NCBI GenBank assembly: GCA_949292905.1 | Contig: CASFAV010000004.1 | Location: 1 to 64,000 of the forward strand | DNA from: an uncultured Eubacteriales bacterium | GTDB taxonomy: Bacteria > Bacillota > Clostridia > Christensenellales > DTU072 | Reading direction: 5' to 3' | DNA: 64,000 nucleotides | Shown here: piece by piece, positions 8,467 through 51,702 of the stretch | Position numbering within the stretch: the stretch's first letter is position 1 | Layout: the number at the start of each line of letters is the position of its first letter | Notes under the pieces: model-generated | What the model was told of the DNA's origin: nothing | Database searches by the model: none | Seen by the model: only the letters and a program-made list of their open reading frames with translations | Position numbers and translations under genes: made by a program

Positions 8467-8520
8467 CCCGTCACTAGCTCCAAAAAGAAACAGACGGGCA
8501 AGCCGTCTGTTTCTTTTGGG

Positions 8521-8533
<13 letters not shown>
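8467..8533. repeat. Long hairpin that inverts the tRNA-Thr 3' end
   Basis: CCCGTCACTAGCTCC (8467-8481) is the exact reverse complement of 8519-8533, which is the T-arm/acceptor end of the tRNA gene. Inside it, 8483-8497 pairs with 8503-8517 around the loop GCAAG. Apart from one A-G mismatch (8482/8518) this is a 31-bp stem. Confidence 0.9.
8482..8517 (-). terminator. Terminator of tRNA-Thr
   Basis: On the minus strand AAAAGAAACAGACGG pairs with CCGTCTGTTTCTTTT across five loop bases and ends in a T run, starting 4 nt after the tRNA 3' end. Confidence 0.8.
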
Positions 8534-8593
<60 letters not shown>

Positions 8594-40512: not shown

Positions 40513-40544
40513 TCTTTGCGCGAAAATTTAAGAAATAAAGAGTA

Positions 40545-40581
40545 AGCGTTCCGAGAATGAATCGAGGAACGCTTTTCTTTT
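40545..40581 (+). terminator. Terminator of folD
   Basis: AGCGTTCC pairs with GGAACGCT across 13 nt and is followed by TTTCTTTT, about 30 nt after the folD stop. Confidence 0.8.
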
Positions 40582-40614
40582 GCCGTTCGCAATACTTTTT
40601 TTCATAAGGTAGCT

Positions 40615-40771
40615 GTTGCGCCCGCCTACCCGGACGGGCGCGCCCGTAAACACCCTGCGAAAGCGTCTTTTTGCCGATACTCTACGGGAGCCTCGTTCGA
40701 CACGAAACCGTAGTTCTTCACTCGTACCCTTGAGCCTCGACAAAAATCCGTCTTTCTCGAGTGCCGACTAC
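40615..40771 (-). repeat. Dispersed repeat, copy A (157 bp)
   Basis: Read on the minus strand it starts GTAGTCGGCAC and ends GGCGGGCGCAAC. It aligns along its whole length with copy C (51534-51689) with one single-base indel. Shared blocks include GGATTTTTGT, GCTCCCGTAG, CAAAAAGAC, CAGGGTGTTTA and a terminal hairpin GCGCCCG/CGGGCGC (40618-40641). Open frames in the segment lack a ribosome binding site, so I do not call a gene. Confidence 0.85.
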
Positions 40772-40811
40772 GTTGAGAAGGCATTACGTTAAATATGGCA
40801 AATAAAATTAA

Positions 40812-41048
40812 ATATCCGCATAATAACGATTTGCATATATAGCGCATTTTGCGCCTGAGGGAACAGGATTTTCGTTCAATTACGAGGGTAGGAGCGAAGA
40901 TTGCAATACTGCATCGAGCGACACTCCCGACGTAAGTGGACGAAAAGACGTTTCCGCAAGGCGGTTAGCGTTGCGATCATCCGGTAGGTGAGCGCAATTA
41001 CCGGTAGCCGCAACCTGATGGTGCGCCCGTCCGGTAGGCGGGCGCAAC
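40812..41048 (+). repeat. Dispersed repeat, copy B (diverged)
   Basis: Opens with ATATCCGCATAATAA and a TAGCGCATTTTGCGCC box, as upstream of copy C. It continues with a diverged core (GGATTTTCGTT, GAGGGTAGGAGCGAAG, ACTCCCGACGT, CGAAAAGACG) and ends in the hairpin GCGCCCG/CGGGCGC at 41023-41045. It lies head to head with copy A, about 130 bp upstream of the giant surface-protein gene. No gene is seen in 40513-41174. Confidence 0.75.
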
Positions 41049-41174
41049 TTATAGCAATTTTATAGTAAATAATTGTGTTAGTCGCTTGCGCGCAGGGATT
41101 TATTATATTAAATTATAGTATATCGGTTGAATTTTCCGGGCTGCCGCGTGTGTTTACGCGCAGGAGGTACAGAT

Positions 41175-44100
41175 ATGAGTAAGAAAATCGTCAGAAAGTT
41201 TTCCGCTTTTGCAATCATTCTCGTCGTTATGCTCGCTTCGCTGTGCATTTTCACGCTCTATCAGAGTTCCGTGAACGCCGTTATCCTCGACGCTCTCGAC
41301 GACATAGATATCGATACCGCTCAGATCTCCTCGTCGCTCGATCGGGTCGACGTTGCCGAAGCGGCTACCATGAATCCGAGCATTTCATCGATTACTTCAA
41401 CGGGATCGTTCATAATAATGGGTGGGTATGAACGGAGAACTAAAGTTATAGGTAATACTTCCGGCGATAAGGATAATTCGGTAAGCGCAGTATCACTTAA
41501 TTTTTCTACACGTTACGCTAACGCAAAAGCAGGCAGTGCACTGACATACAAACTCACGGCTTACGTAGCAGCCAACGACCAAGGAAGGAACCTTTGGATA
41601 AGCGGTACCGCCTCGTCCGGCAGTAGCGTTTACGGCGAAACAACAGGTTCAGGCTTTACTCTTTCAACCAACACAGCGACGCTACCTACAAACTCCGGTT
41701 CCATATCTTCCTCTTTCCATTTGGACGTTGACTGGCAAGCGGCTTCGGTTAAAGTAGCGCGAATAGAAAATCTGACTATTGTTATAGGCACATCAGATTC
41801 CACCGCTCCCGAAGTGTCGGCAACGGGGCTTACCGGTATGAATTATACGACTTCAAGTCAATTCAAGGTAAAAGACACCGTAGCCGGAATTTACAGCGTT
41901 TCTTATACTTACTATACGCTGAATAATGTTCCGGACAGTTCGAAAAACAAAAGCTTCTCATATTCTTCCCGCACGACAGAAACGAATATCGATATGCCTT
42001 ATGAAGGTAAATATGAAATCACGGTAGAAGATAACGTCGGCAATAAGAGAACCGTAACTTATTACCGCTACGAAGCCGATATCCAATTCAAGAGCGCAAA
42101 CAGTTCGCAAGGCACTGTTAACGTAACGGCAGTCACGGGAAAAACCTCAGGCAGTACATACGACGTAAGCGCGACCGTTACCCCCGCCAACGGATATTAC
42201 TTTACGGGTTGGGTACGCACCGGCGACGGCGGTACCGCTAATTTCGGAGCAGGCACCTACTCGTCCGGAAAGTGGGAACATAAGTCCCAGTCCGTCCCCG
42301 CTTATTCCGGAGGGACCATTACCTGGACCGCGCAATTCGCGCCTATAAGCGCGTGGTTCAATTATACGTCGGGTAGCAGTATGACCTACAACGGCGGCGC
42401 GCAGACCAACATAGCTTCCGTATCGGTCAAAAACGATAACGGCGGAACCCAACTCAGTTACACTCTCACTTACGCCGGCACCTCAAAAGCGGGCAATACG
42501 TACTCTTCCGCAAGCAAGCCGGTATTCGCGGGCACGTATTACGCCGAACTCACCGTCACCAAGGGCGGCGGTGTTCTCGGAAGCGGTGATTCCTCCGCGT
42601 CGGCGTTTACGATAAATCAGGCTACTCTTACGCTCACTCCTCAGTTTACGGGCACGATGTCCAAGACTTACAACGGCACGACCGCAATGCCCGGCGTCGG
42701 GTGTTCGACGTGGACTTTCGATACGACCGCCTCGCCGCAGAAAAACGACGGTCTGTCCGCCTCGACCAGATCCGATTCGGAGTTTTCATTCAAGATACCC
42801 GACGCCAACGCAGGGACCAAAACGATACAGATATGCGGCGCGGGCGGCGCGGTCCTGAATGTCGGCTCCTCTCTCTCCGCATACGTTTCGCTATCCACTA
42901 CCCTCGGCGACGCCGCCGACAGAGTTGCTTCCTACTCCCTCGTCTTCTCGGGGACTACCGCCACATATACGATCGCGCAGAAAACTGTTTACGTCAACCT
43001 TGCTTATGCCGGAAAGATAACCGGCTACGTAGGCGAAGCCTTATACAATGACGTTCCCGGCAAGGTTTACGACGGCACGACCGACGCCGTCCTGTCCATA
43101 GAACTGTACGGTCTTGAGAACGGCGAAACCTATTCAGTAGGCGTGAGCGGGACAAACGCGGAAAGCGGAAAAACCGTGCACCTTACTTATGACCCGTACG
43201 CTTTCGATTATTCGATTCCGGGCGAATATACCATAAAGGTCGACTCTCTGACACTTAAAGACGGCAACGGTAAAGCGAGCAATTATTCGCTCGACTCCTC
43301 GTCCGCGGACTGCGCGGGAATATACATCGTTCGTAAGCCTGTCAAGCTCGCAATATCGGGAGAAACGTCCAAAACTTACGACGGCACGGACGTAGCGACC
43401 CCTACCGTGGTATTCGCGGCGGGTTACGAGCCGCTTCAAAAAGACAATATAAGCATTTCGGCGGGCACCGCGATCTATTCGCAAGCCGCCGTCGGCACCG
43501 GACTCACCGTTACTCTCTCGGGGTATTCTCTCTCGGGAGATCTTGCCGGATATTATTATCTCGACACGGCGCCGGTAACTTCCTCTGCGGGAAGTATCAC
43601 AAAGCGCGACCTTACCGTAAAATTCACTTACGACGGCAAGGTTTACGACGGCACGACGGATGTCAACACGAACGATTTTACATTCCATTACGATGAACTC
43701 ATAACGGGCGACGACGTTACGGCAAGCTGTACAGCTACATTCGACGACGCTAACGCGGGAACGCGTAAAGTAAGTTCCGTTGATATAGCGATCGACGGCT
43801 CGGACGTCGGCAATTACTCTCTTACCTCGACAAGCTACACGCTTAACGCGGTGACGATATCGAGAAGGTCCGTCGAGGACAACGACGATATCGTGCTTAT
43901 ACTCGATACGGAAGGAATACCTTCCCATACCTATGACGGCAACGAATACACCCCCGCGCCCGAAGTCAAAGATACTGCGATAAACGGCGGAACGGACCTT
44001 ATCTACGACGTCGATTACACTCGCGGATACAGCAGTCTCGACAGAATCAACGCGGGCACTTACTATTACATAATCACAGGCAAAGGCAACTACACCGGTC

Positions 44101-47100
44101 AAAAATCGTTCCTGTTCGAGATAACGAAGTCCGCGCTCTCGCTCACCGCGAACGACATTTCGCTCGTGTACGGGCAGACTCTCTCCGCTTCTCAGATAAA
44201 AGGCGTTGCGGTCAATCCCCTCAACGAGTCGCTCGTAGTGGACGGCACGTGGAGCTTCGTAACGGAAATAGCTTACAATACTTCGCTCGCATCGAAAGGT
44301 AATATCCCGCTCGTCTCCTCTTCGGGAACGGTAACGGTGCTTTTCACCGTAGTCGATACGGATACTTCCCCTTTCAATACGCGCAACTATAATCTTACCA
44401 AAGAAACCACTCTCGAGCTCACCGTAACGCCGCGTGAAATTTCCATAGTCGCGAAAGCGCAGAGCTCCGTATACGGCACCGATCCCGGATTCGACAAAGC
44501 CGCGTTTACCGCGACCGTCGCGCTCGCCGAAGGCGAGATACTCAATTTCACGCCCGTTACGGAAGACTCGACGCTTTCCTCGGGAGCTCTAGAGTGCGGC
44601 GTCGTCTATAACAGCGACGTCGGTAATTATCCGATAACAAGCACTTTCGCTTCGGAAAATTATACCATAAATTATACCGAAGCTTTCTTCACCGTCACCA
44701 AGCTGAGCGTTACGGTCGTTCCCGACAGCGGACAACAAAAATATTTCGGCGACGCCGATCCCAACGCTTTCACATACACCACGACCACAACGCAGTCGCT
44801 TGCCTCAGGCTTTACCGTATCCCTCGATGGTGCGCTCGCACGCGCGGCAGGCGAAACGGTAGGCACCTATTACTATTCGCTCGGCACCATAACGGACGCC
44901 GCCAATCCAAACTACACCGTAACTCTCAATAATACGAGATCGTTTAACGTCCTCGCCCGTCCGTTAAACGTAACGGCCTACTCTTACGAAGTGTATTTCG
45001 GCGAAGCCTTCCCCGCGCTCGGCTTTACGGTAGCCGACGGACTCGACGCCGTTACTCCGATCGTCGGTACCGACGATAGCGGTAACTATACTCTTACCGT
45101 GGGAACGCAGACGGTCATATTCGAAATCGACGTGATCCGCACCGCGAAAGGTTCGAGCGTCGTAAGTTCCGCGATAACGGTAGGAAGTTACGATACTTAC
45201 GCCGTGCTCGGCACGAACGCGAACTTTACCGTAACGGCTGAACGCGGCTCATTCGAGATACTCCGCCGCCCCGTTACCGTCACCCCGAACGGCGGTCAAT
45301 ACAAATCTTACGGCAGCTCCGATCCCGTCTCCTTCTCCTATACCGTCTCGCTTACGCCCGGTTACGAAGGATTGACGGGCGACGCGCAGGTGACCAACTA
45401 TTCGATCACGGGCGCGCTTACCAGAGAAGCAGGCGAAAACGTGGGAAGCTACGAGATATATCAGGGTACCGTCACCGACGACAATAACCCGAATTATTCG
45501 ATAACTTTCACTGAGGGCGTCACCTACACAGTCGAGCGCAAATCCGTCGTGATCGTTCCCGTCACGGTCACCATAGACTTCGGCGATCCGCTTCCCGACG
45601 ACGATGCGCTCACCTATACCGCTACCGGCGTTCTCGCGGGCGAAACTCTCGTGGGCGGTCTGAAGTTCGCCCCCGACGTTTACGAGCTCGCGGCACAAGG
45701 CTCGGTGCCCGTAGGAAACTACGACATCGTAGCGGACTCCGAGCTCAATAACGACCTGAACCCCAATTACGACATTACCGAAGTACGCGGTAAGGAAGCG
45801 CTGCGCGTTCTCGCGCTTACCGCGTATATCGAAGCGGACGGAAATTCGATAGTTTTCGGCACGGAAACTTACACCCTCAACTTCACCGCGCACGACCGTA
45901 AAGGTAATCCGATAGATAAAAGTTTTATAAGCGGAGAACTTGCGTTGCGCGACAACGTAAGCGGCATTCTTGCCGTAGGAAATTACGATATCGTTCTCGG
46001 TACGCTCGCATGCGAGAACTACGAGATCGATCTTTCCGGCACTCCTCAACTCGAAGTTACCCCCAAACTTATCACCGTAACGAGCGGGGACGTATCTCAG
46101 ATCTACGGCGAAACGAGACTTACTCCCGAATTTTCCGTGACGGAGCTTGTCGACGGATATAAGCTCGACGCGCAAAGCGCGCTCGGCGTGAGTTATCCCG
46201 ACAGAGAAGCCGTCGGTCAATACGCCGTCACGCTCGGCAATCTCGAAAGCCTCAATCCCAATTACGATTTCGCGTTCGACAGAGAATATTTCTACTACAT
46301 TACCGCGCGTCCTATCGTGATAGTGCCCGACCAAGGCATGACTTCCGTCTACGGAAACACCGAAGTCAATATCACTTATACCGCCTACTATTACGACGAT
46401 AACTCGAAAGCGGGTCTTATCGGCGCCGATACCCTCGGCGGTAAGCTATCGAGAGAGAATTCTACCAATAAGAACGTAGGCATATACAAGATCCTTTTAG
46501 GCACGCTGAACAATTCCTCCGCCGCGGGCTATAACGCAAACTATACCGTGGAGCTTTCCTCCACACCCGTTTATTACGAGATAACCCCGCGCCCCGTAAC
46601 GGTCACGGCTAACGCCCTTTCGCAGGTATTCGGCGAAGCGGAGCGCGTGCTCACCGTAACGTATTCGGCAGGCGGACTCGTAGGCGGCGATTCGCTCTAC
46701 GGCAGTCCCGAACGCGAGAACGGCGTAATACCCGGAGTTTACGCGATAACCCAGGGCACTCTCGGCAACGACAACGGCAACAACCCCAATTATAAGATCA
46801 CCTTCGTGGGCGCCACTTATACCATTACGAAGCGCCCCGTCACCTTCTATGCCGCCGACGCTTCGAAGGGCTACGGCGAGACCGATCCCGAATCGTTCGA
46901 CTATTACGCTTTCGGCGGAACTGGTACGAGCGGTAACGCTTTCGTCTCCGGATACGAGCCCACCGTCGTTATTACCCGCGCCGAAGGCGAATACCCCGCA
47001 AGCTACGCCTATTCGTATTCGGCTACCGGCGACTATGCGGATTATTACATCTTCACTTACAGATACGACACGCAGTTCACCATCACGAGAGGTCAGGCGG

Positions 47101-49736
47101 CGGTCAACGTGATAGACGCGGTATTCGATAACGGCGTATTCTACATAGAAAGAGTTTATCGCGGCGAAGCGTACACCCTCGAGACGGAACTAACGATGGG
47201 TACCGGGCTCACGACCACGATACGCATCAATAACGCAGCCACCGACAAATACACCGACGTGGGCGAATATACCGCGCTCGTATCGGTGACCGGCGACTCC
47301 TATTTCGCTGGTACCACCGCCACGGTGCGCATAACCGTGAAACCCTACGATCTCGGCGAGCTCTCCCCTCTCGCCGCGCTCGAAGAAGGCAGTAGGAAAA
47401 AGACTTACGGCGACTCCGATCCGTCGTTCGCGGCAACGGTCGGCGGTCTTAACGACGCGCAGGTAAGCGTATCGTTTACCCGCTCCGCGGGAGAGAACGC
47501 AGGCTCCTACCTCTTCGACTCCGTTACGGTCCACGATAAGAACTACACCGCAAGCGTAGCCGCAGACGAATATTTCACCGTCGAAGCGCGCCCGATAGAG
47601 ATAGTGCCCGCCACCTTCAAAAAGACGTACGGCGCGCTCGATCCCGAACTCGTTCAGACCGTGACTTCCGACGTCGGAGAGATCTTCAAAGTAACCTTCT
47701 CAAGAGAAGACGGCTATAACGCGGGAAGCTACGATATTACCTCCGTAACGCTCGAAGAAGGTTTCGCCGCTAACTACAGCGCCGTACTCGGCGAAGCGGA
47801 AGACAAGTTCATAGTCGTTCCCAAAGCCGCCACCGTGACGGCGAACGCCATCACTCGCGTCTTCGACGCGACGGACGGCGGCGTAACGCTCACGTATACC
47901 GCCGACGGATTCCTCTATGACGACGCCGAAGCGCTCGAAGGAGCGCTCGGGATAGCGGACCTCGAGAACCTTCCCGTGGAAGCGGGCACCTACGAGATAA
48001 TAGCAGCGACCGCATTCGCGCACCCCGACTACACGGTGACCTTCGTCGGCGCGGAATACGTAATCGAGCGCGCTCCCGTAACTGTTATTTCCAATAGCGT
48101 AAGCTACGAATACGGAGTAGAGATCGCGCCGTTCACGTACAGCGTCGAGGGCACGGTCTACGCGGAATACCCCCTCTCGGGCGAACTCGGCTTGCTCTCC
48201 TCGTTCAACGTGGGCAGTCACGCAATACCGCAGGGAACTCTTACCGACGAGAACAACCCCAACTACGATATCGCTTACGTAGCGGGCACTTGCGAAATAA
48301 CGGTGATAACGGTAACGGTAACGCCCGTTCCTCTTACCGAACAGGTCTACGGCGACGCTCCCGCGGTCATCGCTTATACGATAAGCGGTAACGTGGTGAG
48401 CGCAGACGTCGGCGAAAACGGTATGTTTATCCGCGGTGCGCTCGCGTGCTCCGGCGTTTCCGCAGGAGATCACGCTATAGAGATTGGCACGCTCCGCGAA
48501 GAAAACCCCGACTACGTGATAGAATTCGAACCCGCAGGCGCGATATACAGGATAACGCCGAGAACTCTGACCGTCACATCCAATGAAGTAAGCGTATATT
48601 ACGGCGACGCCGAAGCCGAGCTCACCTACTCCGTCGAAGGTCTCGTCGAAGGCGACTCTCTTGCCGGCGCGCTCTCGCGCGTGGCAGGCAATTCCGTAGG
48701 CGCCTACGCGATAAACATCGGCGACCTTAACGCGTATAACGCGGAAGACTACGAAGTCAAATTCGTTTCCGCAAACTACGTTATCATGCCGAGACCGCTC
48801 ACCGTGCAGATATCCGACCAAAGCTCCGAATACTCCGAAACGGGCGAATACGCTTTCGACGGAACCGCTTATAAGATAACCGAAGGCACCGTAGTCGAAG
48901 GCGACAACGTCGGCATAACGATCGCAAAAGAAGCGGGCACGGCTATGGGATTATACGCTATAACCGGCACATATACCAATAAGAATTACGACGTTACCTT
49001 CGTAAACGGCGTATACGAAATAAAGAAGTATTCGAGCTTTATAAGCTATACGGCGAGCGTATCCTTAATTTACGACGGCACCGCATACGTTATCGACGCC
49101 ACCTGCTCGAGCGGCGCGCCAGTGCTCGTAACCTACGAACTTAACGGCGAAATAAGTCACGTCAACTCTTTCTCCGAAGTCGGCAAATACGTTATCACCC
49201 TTACCGCCGAGGAAACCGACAGCTATTACGCCCCCGCCGTCGCGGCTATGGAGATAACCATTCTGCGCGACGTACTGCTTGCCGAGGATGGCGGCATCGA
49301 TATCCGCGTGGATAACGAAGACGGTTTCGATCCCGACATATCTGTCGAAATGGAGAAACTCCCGCAAAACGATCCCGGTATCAATTCCGTTATCTCATCT
49401 TCCGAATCCATAGTACGCGCGTATAACGTGCAGGTCGTGGACGGCAACGGCGAGCTCACCACGGGCATAAACAATCCGTCGATCTCCGTGAAGGTCCCCA
49501 CCGCTCTCAGAGACAACGACACCGTTAAAGTGATCGTCAAGGAAAACGGCAACTATTCCGTAAGACTGCTGGAGGTACGAGAGGACTACGTCACGATAGA
49601 TAACGCCGCGGAGGTTACCACGATAGCGTTCATCAGCGAAGCCGAAAGCGATTATCTCATATATATCCTCATCGGCTGCGCCGCGCTCATAATTATCGTT
49701 TCCACGATAGTATTTATGTTCCGCAAGAGAGCGTGA
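41175..49736 (+). CDS. Giant MBG/YDG-repeat surface protein (2853 residues)
   Basis: Start at the ATG at 41175, eight bases after GGAGG; an ATG 16 codons earlier has no such site. A signal/anchor helix spans about 10-30. A beta domain and an Ig-like segment run to about 295. An InlB-type repeat (GYYFTGWV) spans about 300-395. Six YDG-type units follow (YNGG, YNGTT, YDGTT, YDGTD, YDGTT, YDGN at about 403-920). About 17 MBG-type units then run to about 2640, each starting like VTANALSQVFGEAERVLTV. A C-terminal domain (about 2700-2820) precedes a transmembrane helix (about 2826-2848) and the tail RKRA. No LPXTG motif, so it is membrane- rather than wall-anchored. MBG domains are mucin-binding or structural stalks in bacterial adhesins; binding target is inference. 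Confidence 0.93.
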   Translation: MSKKIVRKFSAFAIILVVMLASLCIFTLYQSSVNAVILDALDDIDIDTAQISSSLDRVDVAEAATMNPSISSITSTGSFIIMGGYERRTKVIGNTSGDKDNSVSAVSLNFSTRYANAKAGSALTYKLTAYVAANDQGRNLWISGTASSGSSVYGETTGSGFTLSTNTATLPTNSGSISSSFHLDVDWQAASVKVARIENLTIVIGTSDSTAPEVSATGLTGMNYTTSSQFKVKDTVAGIYSVSYTYYTLNNVPDSSKNKSFSYSSRTTETNIDMPYEGKYEITVEDNVGNKRTVTYYRYEADIQFKSANSSQGTVNVTAVTGKTSGSTYDVSATVTPANGYYFTGWVRTGDGGTANFGAGTYSSGKWEHKSQSVPAYSGGTITWTAQFAPISAWFNYTSGSSMTYNGGAQTNIASVSVKNDNGGTQLSYTLTYAGTSKAGNTYSSASKPVFAGTYYAELTVTKGGGVLGSGDSSASAFTINQATLTLTPQFTGTMSKTYNGTTAMPGVGCSTWTFDTTASPQKNDGLSASTRSDSEFSFKIPDANAGTKTIQICGAGGAVLNVGSSLSAYVSLSTTLGDAADRVASYSLVFSGTTATYTIAQKTVYVNLAYAGKITGYVGEALYNDVPGKVYDGTTDAVLSIELYGLENGETYSVGVSGTNAESGKTVHLTYDPYAFDYSIPGEYTIKVDSLTLKDGNGKASNYSLDSSSADCAGIYIVRKPVKLAISGETSKTYDGTDVATPTVVFAAGYEPLQKDNISISAGTAIYSQAAVGTGLTVTLSGYSLSGDLAGYYYLDTAPVTSSAGSITKRDLTVKFTYDGKVYDGTTDVNTNDFTFHYDELITGDDVTASCTATFDDANAGTRKVSSVDIAIDGSDVGNYSLTSTSYTLNAVTISRRSVEDNDDIVLILDTEGIPSHTYDGNEYTPAPEVKDTAINGGTDLIYDVDYTRGYSSLDRINAGTYYYIITGKGNYTGQKSFLFEITKSALSLTANDISLVYGQTLSASQIKGVAVNPLNESLVVDGTWSFVTEIAYNTSLASKGNIPLVSSSGTVTVLFTVVDTDTSPFNTRNYNLTKETTLELTVTPREISIVAKAQSSVYGTDPGFDKAAFTATVALAEGEILNFTPVTEDSTLSSGALECGVVYNSDVGNYPITSTFASENYTINYTEAFFTVTKLSVTVVPDSGQQKYFGDADPNAFTYTTTTTQSLASGFTVSLDGALARAAGETVGTYYYSLGTITDAANPNYTVTLNNTRSFNVLARPLNVTAYSYEVYFGEAFPALGFTVADGLDAVTPIVGTDDSGNYTLTVGTQTVIFEIDVIRTAKGSSVVSSAITVGSYDTYAVLGTNANFTVTAERGSFEILRRPVTVTPNGGQYKSYGSSDPVSFSYTVSLTPGYEGLTGDAQVTNYSITGALTREAGENVGSYEIYQGTVTDDNNPNYSITFTEGVTYTVERKSVVIVPVTVTIDFGDPLPDDDALTYTATGVLAGETLVGGLKFAPDVYELAAQGSVPVGNYDIVADSELNNDLNPNYDITEVRGKEALRVLALTAYIEADGNSIVFGTETYTLNFTAHDRKGNPIDKSFISGELALRDNVSGILAVGNYDIVLGTLACENYEIDLSGTPQLEVTPKLITVTSGDVSQIYGETRLTPEFSVTELVDGYKLDAQSALGVSYPDREAVGQYAVTLGNLESLNPNYDFAFDREYFYYITARPIVIVPDQGMTSVYGNTEVNITYTAYYYDDNSKAGLIGADTLGGKLSRENSTNKNVGIYKILLGTLNNSSAAGYNANYTVELSSTPVYYEITPRPVTVTANALSQVFGEAERVLTVTYSAGGLVGGDSLYGSPERENGVIPGVYAITQGTLGNDNGNNPNYKITFVGATYTITKRPVTFYAADASKGYGETDPESFDYYAFGGTGTSGNAFVSGYEPTVVITRAEGEYPASYAYSYSATGDYADYYIFTYRYDTQFTITRGQAAVNVIDAVFDNGVFYIERVYRGEAYTLETELTMGTGLTTTIRINNAATDKYTDVGEYTALVSVTGDSYFAGTTATVRITVKPYDLGELSPLAALEEGSRKKTYGDSDPSFAATVGGLNDAQVSVSFTRSAGENAGSYLFDSVTVHDKNYTASVAADEYFTVEARPIEIVPATFKKTYGALDPELVQTVTSDVGEIFKVTFSREDGYNAGSYDITSVTLEEGFAANYSAVLGEAEDKFIVVPKAATVTANAITRVFDATDGGVTLTYTADGFLYDDAEALEGALGIADLENLPVEAGTYEIIAATAFAHPDYTVTFVGAEYVIERAPVTVISNSVSYEYGVEIAPFTYSVEGTVYAEYPLSGELGLLSSFNVGSHAIPQGTLTDENNPNYDIAYVAGTCEITVITVTVTPVPLTEQVYGDAPAVIAYTISGNVVSADVGENGMFIRGALACSGVSAGDHAIEIGTLREENPDYVIEFEPAGAIYRITPRTLTVTSNEVSVYYGDAEAELTYSVEGLVEGDSLAGALSRVAGNSVGAYAINIGDLNAYNAEDYEVKFVSANYVIMPRPLTVQISDQSSEYSETGEYAFDGTAYKITEGTVVEGDNVGITIAKEAGTAMGLYAITGTYTNKNYDVTFVNGVYEIKKYSSFISYTASVSLIYDGTAYVIDATCSSGAPVLVTYELNGEISHVNSFSEVGKYVITLTAEETDSYYAPAVAAMEITILRDVLLAEDGGIDIRVDNEDGFDPDISVEMEKLPQNDPGINSVISSSESIVRAYNVQVVDGNGELTTGINNPSISVKVPTALRDNDTVKVIVKENGNYSVRLLEVREDYVTIDNAAEVTTIAFISEAESDYLIYILIGCAALIIIVSTIVFMFRKRA

Positions 49737-49766
49737 GCGTAAAATAAATTTTACGTTAACTTATAT

Positions 49767-49795
49767 TTTACGGGTCGCATGGCCCGTAAATTTTT
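49767..49795 (+). terminator. Terminator of the MBG-protein gene
   Basis: TTTACGGG pairs with CCCGTAAA and is followed by TTTTT, 30 nt after the stop. Confidence 0.88.
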
Positions 49796-49822
49796 GCATT
49801 TTACACGCGCGCGTGATATAAT
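49794..49822 (+). promoter_or_regulatory. Promoter of the acyltransferase gene
   Basis: TTGCAT at 49794-49799, 17-nt spacer, TATAAT at 49817-49822. It overlaps the end of the preceding terminator. Confidence 0.75.
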
Positions 49823-49868
49823 CGGTGAGATATAGAAACTAGGCCTAAACGATATGAGAGGTACAAGC

Positions 49869-51161
49869 ATGAAAAAAATATTGAAAGCGGAAATGTGGGA
49901 TAAGATGCAATATCTTTTCCGCAACTATTACGACCGCTCGATGCATGCGGTATATTACTACGACGGCACGATAGACGAGGAAGCGCTCAAAAAGGTCTAC
50001 GACGCCATACTGAAGAAGATACCCGTATTGCACTCCACGTTCCACAATAATTTCATTCGCCCCTATTGGACGGTGAACGAAGACTATACGAGCGCGGACT
50101 ATTTCGAACTCGTGGAAACGGACGACGTGTGGGGATACCTCGACAAATTCCTCGGCACGGAAATTTGCGCGCAAGGTAAAGTGCAATTCCGGGTAAAGCT
50201 TATCCGCTCCAAAGGCAAAGACGTACTCGCCACCGTGTGCAATCACATGTGCTTCGACGGACCGGACCTCAAATATTTCAATTCCAAAGTCGCCGAGACT
50301 TACACCGAATACAAAAAAAGCGGCAAGCTCGCGCCCGAAATAAAGTGCGGTACGAGAAGCGCCGAGCAAGTGTATTCCAAGATGAACGAGGAAGACTACA
50401 AGCACGCCAAATCTTTATACAAAAACGTTTCTACCGTAGAGAATAAGCATACGTTCCCGTTTGCGGAAAACGACGGTACGGAGCGCTCCCGTCTCGTGCT
50501 CCGCAAGCTCGACAAAGCCGCTTTCCTCGCGATGAAAGCGCGCGGCAAGGCGCAGGGCGCAACGATAAACGACATTATACTCGCGGCGTACTTCCGCGCT
50601 TTATTCAAAATCACAAAAGCGGATTCCCCGCTTACCGTACCCTGCATGTACGACCTGCGCAAATATATCGGCGGCTCCACGGCGGGACTTACGAACCTCA
50701 TCGGCTTCATGCCCTGCACGCTTTCTCCCGATTACGGCAAGGATATGGAAGAAACGGTGGAGAAAGTCAAAGAGGCGTTGCTTCCCGCCAAAAACGACAG
50801 ATTTACGGGGCTGTATTCGCTTCCCCTTCTTAAACTCGCCTATACGGTATTCCCGCATTGCATAAGCGAGATAGCGATAGGATTGGGCTATACGAATCCC
50901 TACATAGGAATGTCGAATATCGGCATACTCAAACCCGAAGAATGCGCCTTCGACGGAATGATGCCCTCGGACGCCTTCTATTCGGGTGCGATCAAATTCA
51001 AGCCGTATATGCAACTTGCGTTCACCACGTTCATGAACGAGATAACGTTCACGATAGGTATACGCGGCAACGATAAAGACGCAAAGATATTCTACGATTT
51101 CATCGGAGACGTGATAGCGGAGATCAAGGCTTACGCGGACTCCCCTCTCACCGTGCGCTGA
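49869..51161 (+). CDS. Condensation/WES-type CoA-dependent acyltransferase-like protein
   Basis: 430 residues from the ATG at 49869, which follows GAGAGG; an ATG five codons earlier lacks a site. It has the two-lobed fold of chloramphenicol-acetyltransferase-like enzymes. LKKVYDAILKKIPVLHSTF lies near the N-terminus, the catalytic HxxxDG motif appears as NHMCFDGPD (about residue 122), TINDIILAAYFRALF is the crossover helix, and PCMYDLRKYI sits in the second lobe. Relatives include PapA5-type and alcohol acyltransferases and condensation domains; no carrier protein or NRPS is nearby. The acceptor is unknown. It has its own promoter, so a link with the upstream adhesin is only positional. Confidence 0.78.
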   Translation: MKKILKAEMWDKMQYLFRNYYDRSMHAVYYYDGTIDEEALKKVYDAILKKIPVLHSTFHNNFIRPYWTVNEDYTSADYFELVETDDVWGYLDKFLGTEICAQGKVQFRVKLIRSKGKDVLATVCNHMCFDGPDLKYFNSKVAETYTEYKKSGKLAPEIKCGTRSAEQVYSKMNEEDYKHAKSLYKNVSTVENKHTFPFAENDGTERSRLVLRKLDKAAFLAMKARGKAQGATINDIILAAYFRALFKITKADSPLTVPCMYDLRKYIGGSTAGLTNLIGFMPCTLSPDYGKDMEETVEKVKEALLPAKNDRFTGLYSLPLLKLAYTVFPHCISEIAIGLGYTNPYIGMSNIGILKPEECAFDGMMPSDAFYSGAIKFKPYMQLAFTTFMNEITFTIGIRGNDKDAKIFYDFIGDVIAEIKAYADSPLTVR

Positions 51162-51235
51162 ACGCACGGCGAAAGCGCGGGAGAAAGGCGAAACAAATAT
51201 TCAACCGAAACAACAAATCGCGCAATCCTTACGCA

Positions 51236-51268
51236 AAACCCGCCCGATATTAGGGCGGGTATATTTAT
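51236..51268 (+). terminator. Terminator of the acyltransferase gene
   Basis: ACCCGCCC pairs with GGGCGGGT around GATATTA and is followed by the AT-rich run ATATTTATAT. Confidence 0.7.
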
Positions 51269-51324
51269 ATCCCGTAAAGTATTACGTCTCATATAAATAA
51301 ATATAAAATAAGATATATCATATA

Positions 51325-51451
51325 TCCGTATAATAAAGATTAACACAATAGCGCATTCTGCGCCCCACCAATAAGGCTAAAATACTTATTCTAATATTGA
51401 CAACAGTATATAGCGCATTCTGCGCCCGTCCGGGCAGACGGGCGCAACCGA
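51325..51451 (+). repeat. Upstream modules of dispersed repeat copy C
   Basis: TATATCCGTATAATAA and a TAGCGCATTCTGCGCC box match the opening of copy B. A second TAGCGCATTCTGCGCC box at about 51411 runs directly into the hairpin GCGCCCG/CGGGCGC (51422-51445). No coding frame is convincing in 51162-51826. Confidence 0.75.
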
Positions 51452-51533
51452 GAGCGATATACTATAAATCAAGCGATAAGATATTAATTTTAATTATTAT
51501 TCAATACCTTATCTCAACCACGCTATTGTAGAA

Positions 51534-51689
51534 GTAGTCGGCACCCGAGTGCGGTGGATTTTTGTTTAGCTGCAAGGGTAGGCGCGAAGGCTGTAGGTTT
51601 ACGCCGAGCAACGCTCCCGTAGCAGATAGACAAAAAGACTCGCTCACAGGGTGTTTAAGATTGCGCCCGTCCGGGCAGGCGGGCGCAAC
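51534..51689 (+). repeat. Dispersed repeat, copy C (156 bp)
   Basis: Starts GTAGTCGGCAC and ends in the hairpin GCGCCCG/CGGGCGC (51663-51686). Aligns end to end with copy A (40615-40771) except for one base. A continuous frame through the core (KGRREGCRF, APVADRQKDSLTGCLR) is partly conserved in copies A and B, but no start codon with a ribosome binding site exists. Confidence 0.85.
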
Positions 51690-51702
51690 CGAGAGCGCGC
51701 GC

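Follow-up and report, generated by a model that had tools for sequence, protein, structure and literature searches.

Putative MITE-like repeats with divergent structured-RNA modules in Clostridia

MITEs usually retain their ends and lose their interiors. ERIC/IRU are imperfect palindromes that insert at TA, and TA is also the target of Correia/NEMIS and RUP. The ERIC/IRU of Enterobacteriaceae and Vibrionaceae are short, many-copy intergenic repeats with a stable RNA fold, classed as MITEs without a transposase of their own and reported to affect transcript stability (PMC10969869). The BOX repeats of pneumococcus are modular, with a variable number of internal modules; they form clusters, insert next to one another, fold as RNA and are in some cases expressed (PMC3049150). 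Correia/NEMIS and RUP are small elements with inverted ends, the RNA hairpins of Correia being cleavable by RNase III and the ends of RUP being IS630-like (PMC10969869, PMC3049150).

The repeats considered here come closest to ERIC, BOX, Correia and RUP in size, fold and dispersal, and differ in their head-to-head layout and conserved interior (PMC10969869, PMC3049150, PMC1590033). Like ERIC/IRU, they are small, intergenic, multi-copy folded elements without their own transposase; no resemblance in sequence was noticed, and unlike ERIC/IRU each element has a pair of diverging modules, the family shows several unrelated terminal sequences, and the interior is conserved class-wide. With BOX they share modularity and folding, but BOX modules stand in tandem, whereas the cores here are head-to-head with inverted ends and do not follow the order boxA-boxB(n)-boxC; BOX, moreover, was described from streptococci, and the present core is conserved across orders. 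Small size and inverted ends also recall Correia/NEMIS and RUP, yet it is the interior and not the ends that is conserved here, and no IS630-type DDE_3 transposase was found in the 13 carrier genomes tested. Within the available parts of the BOX/ERIC/Correia literature and of the metagenomic structured-RNA surveys, no earlier description of the family was found; an unnamed entry in the supplement of PMC8040213 is possible. We consider it probable that these are MITE-like elements, mobile but non-autonomous, whose cargo consists of divergent structured-RNA modules.

Copies in the window, the genome and the class

The window, meaning the whole 64,000-nucleotide stretch analysed, is C4:1-64000 of a 1.95-Mb assembly, and its features are collected in Table 1. 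The original prediction described three copies of a repeat, A, B and C, bracketing a giant adhesin locus. As it claimed, copies A (40615-40771, minus strand) and C align over their full length (~73-74% identity), and copy B is a diverged third core copy (~61-63% identity to A and C), whose core is followed by several tandem hairpins. A degenerate core pattern, derived from the copies themselves after their inspection, matched the window exactly three times, at A, B and C, and found nothing in 100 shuffles. Also borne out were the recurrence of the upstream modules, at 40812-40855, 51322-51365 and 51408-51425, and the presence of a solitary GC hairpin, at 51421-51448.

Table 1. Features of the repeats in the window
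Feature	Position	Strand	Scores and remarks
Two-core element, 434 bp: copy A (-)/spacer/copy B (+)	40615..41048		each outer end carries GC-rich terminal hairpins
Copy A structured core, subtype A, common to C16:124381 and C12:477	40651..40766	-	R1 158 bits; R2 E=4e-6
Copy A terminal hairpin (GCGCCCGTCCGGGTAGGCGGGCGC AAC on - strand)	40615..40641	-	
AT-rich spacer of head-to-head pairs, with ATATCCGCATAATAACGATTTGCATATATAGCGCATTTTGCGC	40767..40848		
Copy B structured core, subtype B, common to C12:246-395 and C8:84136	40849..40963	+	R1 156 bits; R2 E=4e-10
Copy B terminal hairpin array: one full (TCCGGTAGG type), one half, one full GCGCCCG type	40973..41048	+	
Core-less upstream module ATATCCGTATAATAAAG...AGCGCATTCTGCGCC, remnant	51322..51365	+	sequence
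Second upstream module joined to solo terminal hairpin, core lost	51408..51449	+	
Copy C: core 51539-51653 (subtype C) and terminal hairpin 51663-51689	51534..51689	+	R1 164 bits; R2 E=9e-8
241-bp unit containing copy C	51457..51697	+	36-bp direct repeat on both sides (51421-51456 = 51662-51697)

Searching the genome with a covariance model built from 14 of its own copies (R1) returned 15 full copies as well as hairpin-only fragments, and most copies form head-to-head pairs around a common 80-bp AT-rich spacer; the spacer between A and B is found again within core pairs at C4:275k, C16:124.5k, C12:0.4k and C8:84.3k. A and B therefore form a single 434-bp element, which amends the original prediction. 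The outer ends of this element form an inverted repeat, GTTGCGCCCG... and its complement, and versions of the A-spacer-B composite that are 83-92% identical occur elsewhere in the genome and in G008, G010 and G012. Four subtypes can be told apart among the copies compared, ~60-76% alike between and ~80-95% alike within subtypes. Genome-wide, the outer ends are GC hairpins of the variants GCGCCCG/CGGGCGC, GCGCTCA/TGAGCGC, GCGGCTA/TAGCCGC and GCGCTTA/TAAGCGC, which corrects the earlier statement that every copy ends in the first of these; most terminal hairpins keep TCC-GKTA-GG across variants, and hairpin halves have been exchanged between copies.

Judged by open reading frames, the copies are intergenic, and the reading frames listed around the loci included no neighbouring gene common to them. 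The copies do lie on either side of the adhesin gene, a 2869-aa ORF with MBG and YDG domains, but their bracketing of it is incidental, given the copies elsewhere in the genome and the lack of copy C in G008 and G010. Very long genes (>2800 aa) were observed downstream of three of the ~8 own-genome element loci (window 41127-49736, C4:266000-274419 and C16:124902-134000).

Beyond this genome, the proposed search of relatives for the core was also productive. The core pattern matched in genomes including Candidatus Stercoripulliclostridium pullicola and merdigallinarum, and R1 gave matches in 11 of 40 GTDB-family genomes, with weak ones in three further families; these weak matches are mostly multi-copy repeats in their own right. 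A second model (R2) was built from 22 cores of other families, none of them from f1, the family of the window copies. R2, with double compensatory changes in 31 of its 36 pairs, picks up the f1 cores at the loci searched, A, B and C of the window among them (the weakest own-genome copy at E=0.01), and it alone sees two diverged core-like sequences at C8:135295-135430 (L022:7296-7431; E 3e-7) and C14:87024-87162 (L024:5025-5163; E 0.003). Among 396 genomes of the order, 56 carry the fold that it describes (25 of 142 genera), and a sample of 391 genomes from the class has 21 such carriers, some of them from families beyond that order; copy numbers per genome in these sets are lower bounds. No element match came from phages, plasmids or viral contigs.

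Ends, target sites and turnover

Mobility is well supported in family f3. Its elements have fixed lengths, mostly 279 bp (two head-to-head cores) and otherwise 187 bp (one core) or 322 bp, and inverted ends of ~26 bp (TGCCAGACAGGAATAATACGAACCAG) that are flanked by TA on the left in 20, on the right in 14 and on both sides in 10 of 25 elements, against a background of 2.9%. In one genome, G228, about 40 copies of the end sequence run forward and 39 in reverse. Elements of 275-283 bp with two cores, partly with different inverted ends, are found in f6, f32 and f91, and single-core elements of 164-190 bp in further families; head-to-head core pairs occur in at least six families (f1, f3, f6, f49, f82 and f91). 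As in MITEs, the window element and the three f3 sizes stay below ~500 bp with no transposase gene, and terminal inverted repeats are present in the window and in f3, f6, f32 and f91. A search by f3 ends for a longer, autonomous version returned only elements of a few hundred bp, the widest end pair being ~515 bp apart, and comparison with G161 contig 1 resolved no f3 empty site, the intergenic DNA being too diverged. Terminal sequences vary by lineage, and the interior, an RNA fold often laid out as a divergent pair, is kept across several orders, which is the reverse of a typical MITE. Since the interior is kept and the ends change, the long-standing question whether small bacterial repeats are merely parasitic DNA or carriers of a working RNA becomes testable.

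For f1, we infer mobility. In this family neither a clean target duplication nor an empty site came to light, and TA follows CAAC(C) at some ends only. The orthologous loci show turnover, with insertion and deletion not separated at any single f1 site. At the copy-C locus the window holds a hairpin, the 241-bp unit and a second hairpin, where G008 has a single hairpin, and G010 likewise lacks the core of copy C at the orthologous site; because the 36-bp direct repeat accompanies this difference, deletion explains it equally well. Similarly, TGCGCCCG stands at the start of some cores and again at the start of the terminal hairpin, so that a short direct-repeat deletion could account for the core loss at 51408..51449. 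The element at C4:275k is inverted in G012, and other orthologous loci carry different subtypes or additional copies.

Dispersal, inverted ends, the TA preference of f3, copy gain and loss, and inversion together argue for mobile elements. The alternative is an immobile family, amplified by local duplication, of ordinary structured-RNA genes of the chromosome or of cis-regulatory RNAs. It would account for the strong covariation and conserved internal-loop nucleotides described below, and between close species several copies do keep their loci. We nevertheless judge it unlikely: in f3, dozens of near-identical, fixed-length copies with inverted ends and flanking TA lie at unrelated sites, the presence of the family is patchy (it is absent from G003 and G007, which belong to the same genus as the window genome), and the copies have no neighbouring gene in common. 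Target-primed reverse transcription, considered on account of 5'-truncated copies, was rejected, as 3'-truncated copies exist too (C4:275417-275600).

Fold, covariation and strand asymmetry

The core is predicted to fold as one long imperfect hairpin followed by the GC-rich terminal hairpin. RNAalifold applied to the own-genome copies gave 45 pairs, 25 of them with double compensatory changes, and 97.8% of cells were paired in this fold as against 40-51% with partners slid, where control (a) of the covariation tool ignores relatedness and the slid controls correct for it in part only. Among 53 distinct f1 sequences, in an alignment fitted to the model, 40 of the 45 pairs were double-compensated, and in a class-wide set of 51 distinct sequences, likewise fitted to the model, 35 of 36. 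The base pairs thus covary, as the original prediction had asked to be checked. On the outward strand, G-U cells outnumber A-C cells by 105:21 in f1 and by 72:18 in other families; taken by columns, the excess is significant in two of three alignments, A1 (p 0.006) and A5 (p 0.015), but not in A2 (p 0.13). The consensus fold energy is -65 kcal/mol on the outward strand versus -44 on the reverse strand, and class-wide conservation extends to unpaired positions of the GGA/AGA and CGMAG/CRAG loops. Covariation and strand asymmetry together support a putative RNA function of the core. Rfam 15 returned no credible match over the cores at gathering and relaxed E-value thresholds, nor any Rfam match for omega-RNA (the reRNA of IS200/IS605 TnpB and the omega RNA of IscB), for which neighbouring ORFs were simply listed; promoters in the spacer did not exceed chance. 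A kink-turn identity of the GGA/AGA loop was dropped because it was inconsistent between subtypes. A covariance model is now supplied for an RNA-like fold that many gut Clostridia carry and Rfam 15 lacks.

These data also bear on the suggestion that the repeats are palindromes acting as DNA, in the form of cruciforms or of hairpin-loop sites of recombination, and not as RNA. The swapping of hairpin halves and the inversion of entire elements show that the palindromes do recombine, but a cruciform is neutral as to strand and the wobble excess lies on one strand, an asymmetry with which single-stranded DNA of that strand would be compatible; the conservation of specific unpaired bases likewise speaks against this suggestion, to which we give little credence. 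Slightly less probable still are REP/BIME-like palindromes, whose bulged terminal hairpin would serve, as single-stranded DNA, as the substrate of a mobilising Y1 transposase (RAYT/IS200-type). Bulged hairpins and mosaic, inverted head-to-head arrays are shared with REP/BIME and RAYT systems, and the bulge and loop of the hairpin are conserved (TCC-GKTA-GG). REP palindromes, however, are 20-40 nt long and flank their cognate Y1, whereas the present unit is much larger and the only Y1_Tnp in the genome belongs to a separate, unrelated IS200 whose terminal hairpins differ and which has no element copy next to it; the f1 hairpin is missing from the f3 and f6 relatives, the f3 ends are inverted and flanked by TA, and the covarying core of ~117 bp would be left unexplained. 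From the candidates originally listed, the non-autonomous mobile element and the structured RNA survive in combination, and the REP-like array is not supported. Decayed ends of a protein gene or coding transposon, which inverted ends and patchy distribution would suit, are effectively refuted by the absence of a frame open in every copy, the compensatory pairing and the fixed short elements with nothing between their cores in several families. Neither outcome that the original prediction had named against itself, a lack of further copies or decayed ends of a protein gene, was observed, the copies being many.

Possible role and adjoining repeats

If the repeats are mobile elements of the kind proposed, their payload would be the conserved ~117-nt structured-RNA module, present once or, typically, twice in divergent orientation. 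A transposase would act in trans on the element ends, recombination between hairpins and between cores would then reshuffle the copies, and the interior would be kept because the outward-reading strand folds as RNA. With the two cores pointing away from each other, insertion beside a transcribed gene in either direction delivers one core in sense, and it is on this ground that a role in cis on the host transcript is proposed. It is tempting to speculate, and we do so tentatively, that the core most likely works as a cis element within the host transcript, protecting, processing or antiterminating it and thereby rendering insertions tolerable. A bolder possibility, of which we are doubtful, is a class-wide superfamily of clostridial mobile elements, hitherto undescribed and defined by the conserved RNA, usually in two divergent copies, whose ends change and whose success is due to the RNA itself, be it as a transposition cofactor or through antitermination or transcript protection neutralising insertion damage in both orientations. 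The RNA proposed to define such a superfamily would have the GGA/AGA loop beside a UUUU/AAAA stem and the CGMAG/CRAG internal loop near the apex.

Several other repeats were observed. A terminator-like hairpin, AAGCGTTCCGAGA...TCTCGGAACGCTT, adjoins several element ends (window 40541-40583, C8:134.57k, C8:84.5k and C8:135.5k), as if preferred by the elements or travelling with them. At C8:134.85k-135.25k (L022:6870-7250) a separate long palindromic repeat, GGGCTTGCGCC...GGGCGCAAGCCC, stands in tandem next to copy M. Another dispersed repeat, CCCTTCTCCTCGGTTTGG...GGGCGCA...TGCGCCC, found at C12:71.9k-72.4k (L021:5943-6408) and at L059, L060, L061, L062 and L075, is common to the window genome (G000), G001, G006, G009 and G015, and in G001 it borders element copies. 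Elsewhere in the window, a nearly perfect inverted repeat of 31 nt (8467-8533) overlaps the end of a tRNA gene (8521-8593), and a tandem repeat with a 69-bp period (120-622) comprises six copies that are 60-82% alike.
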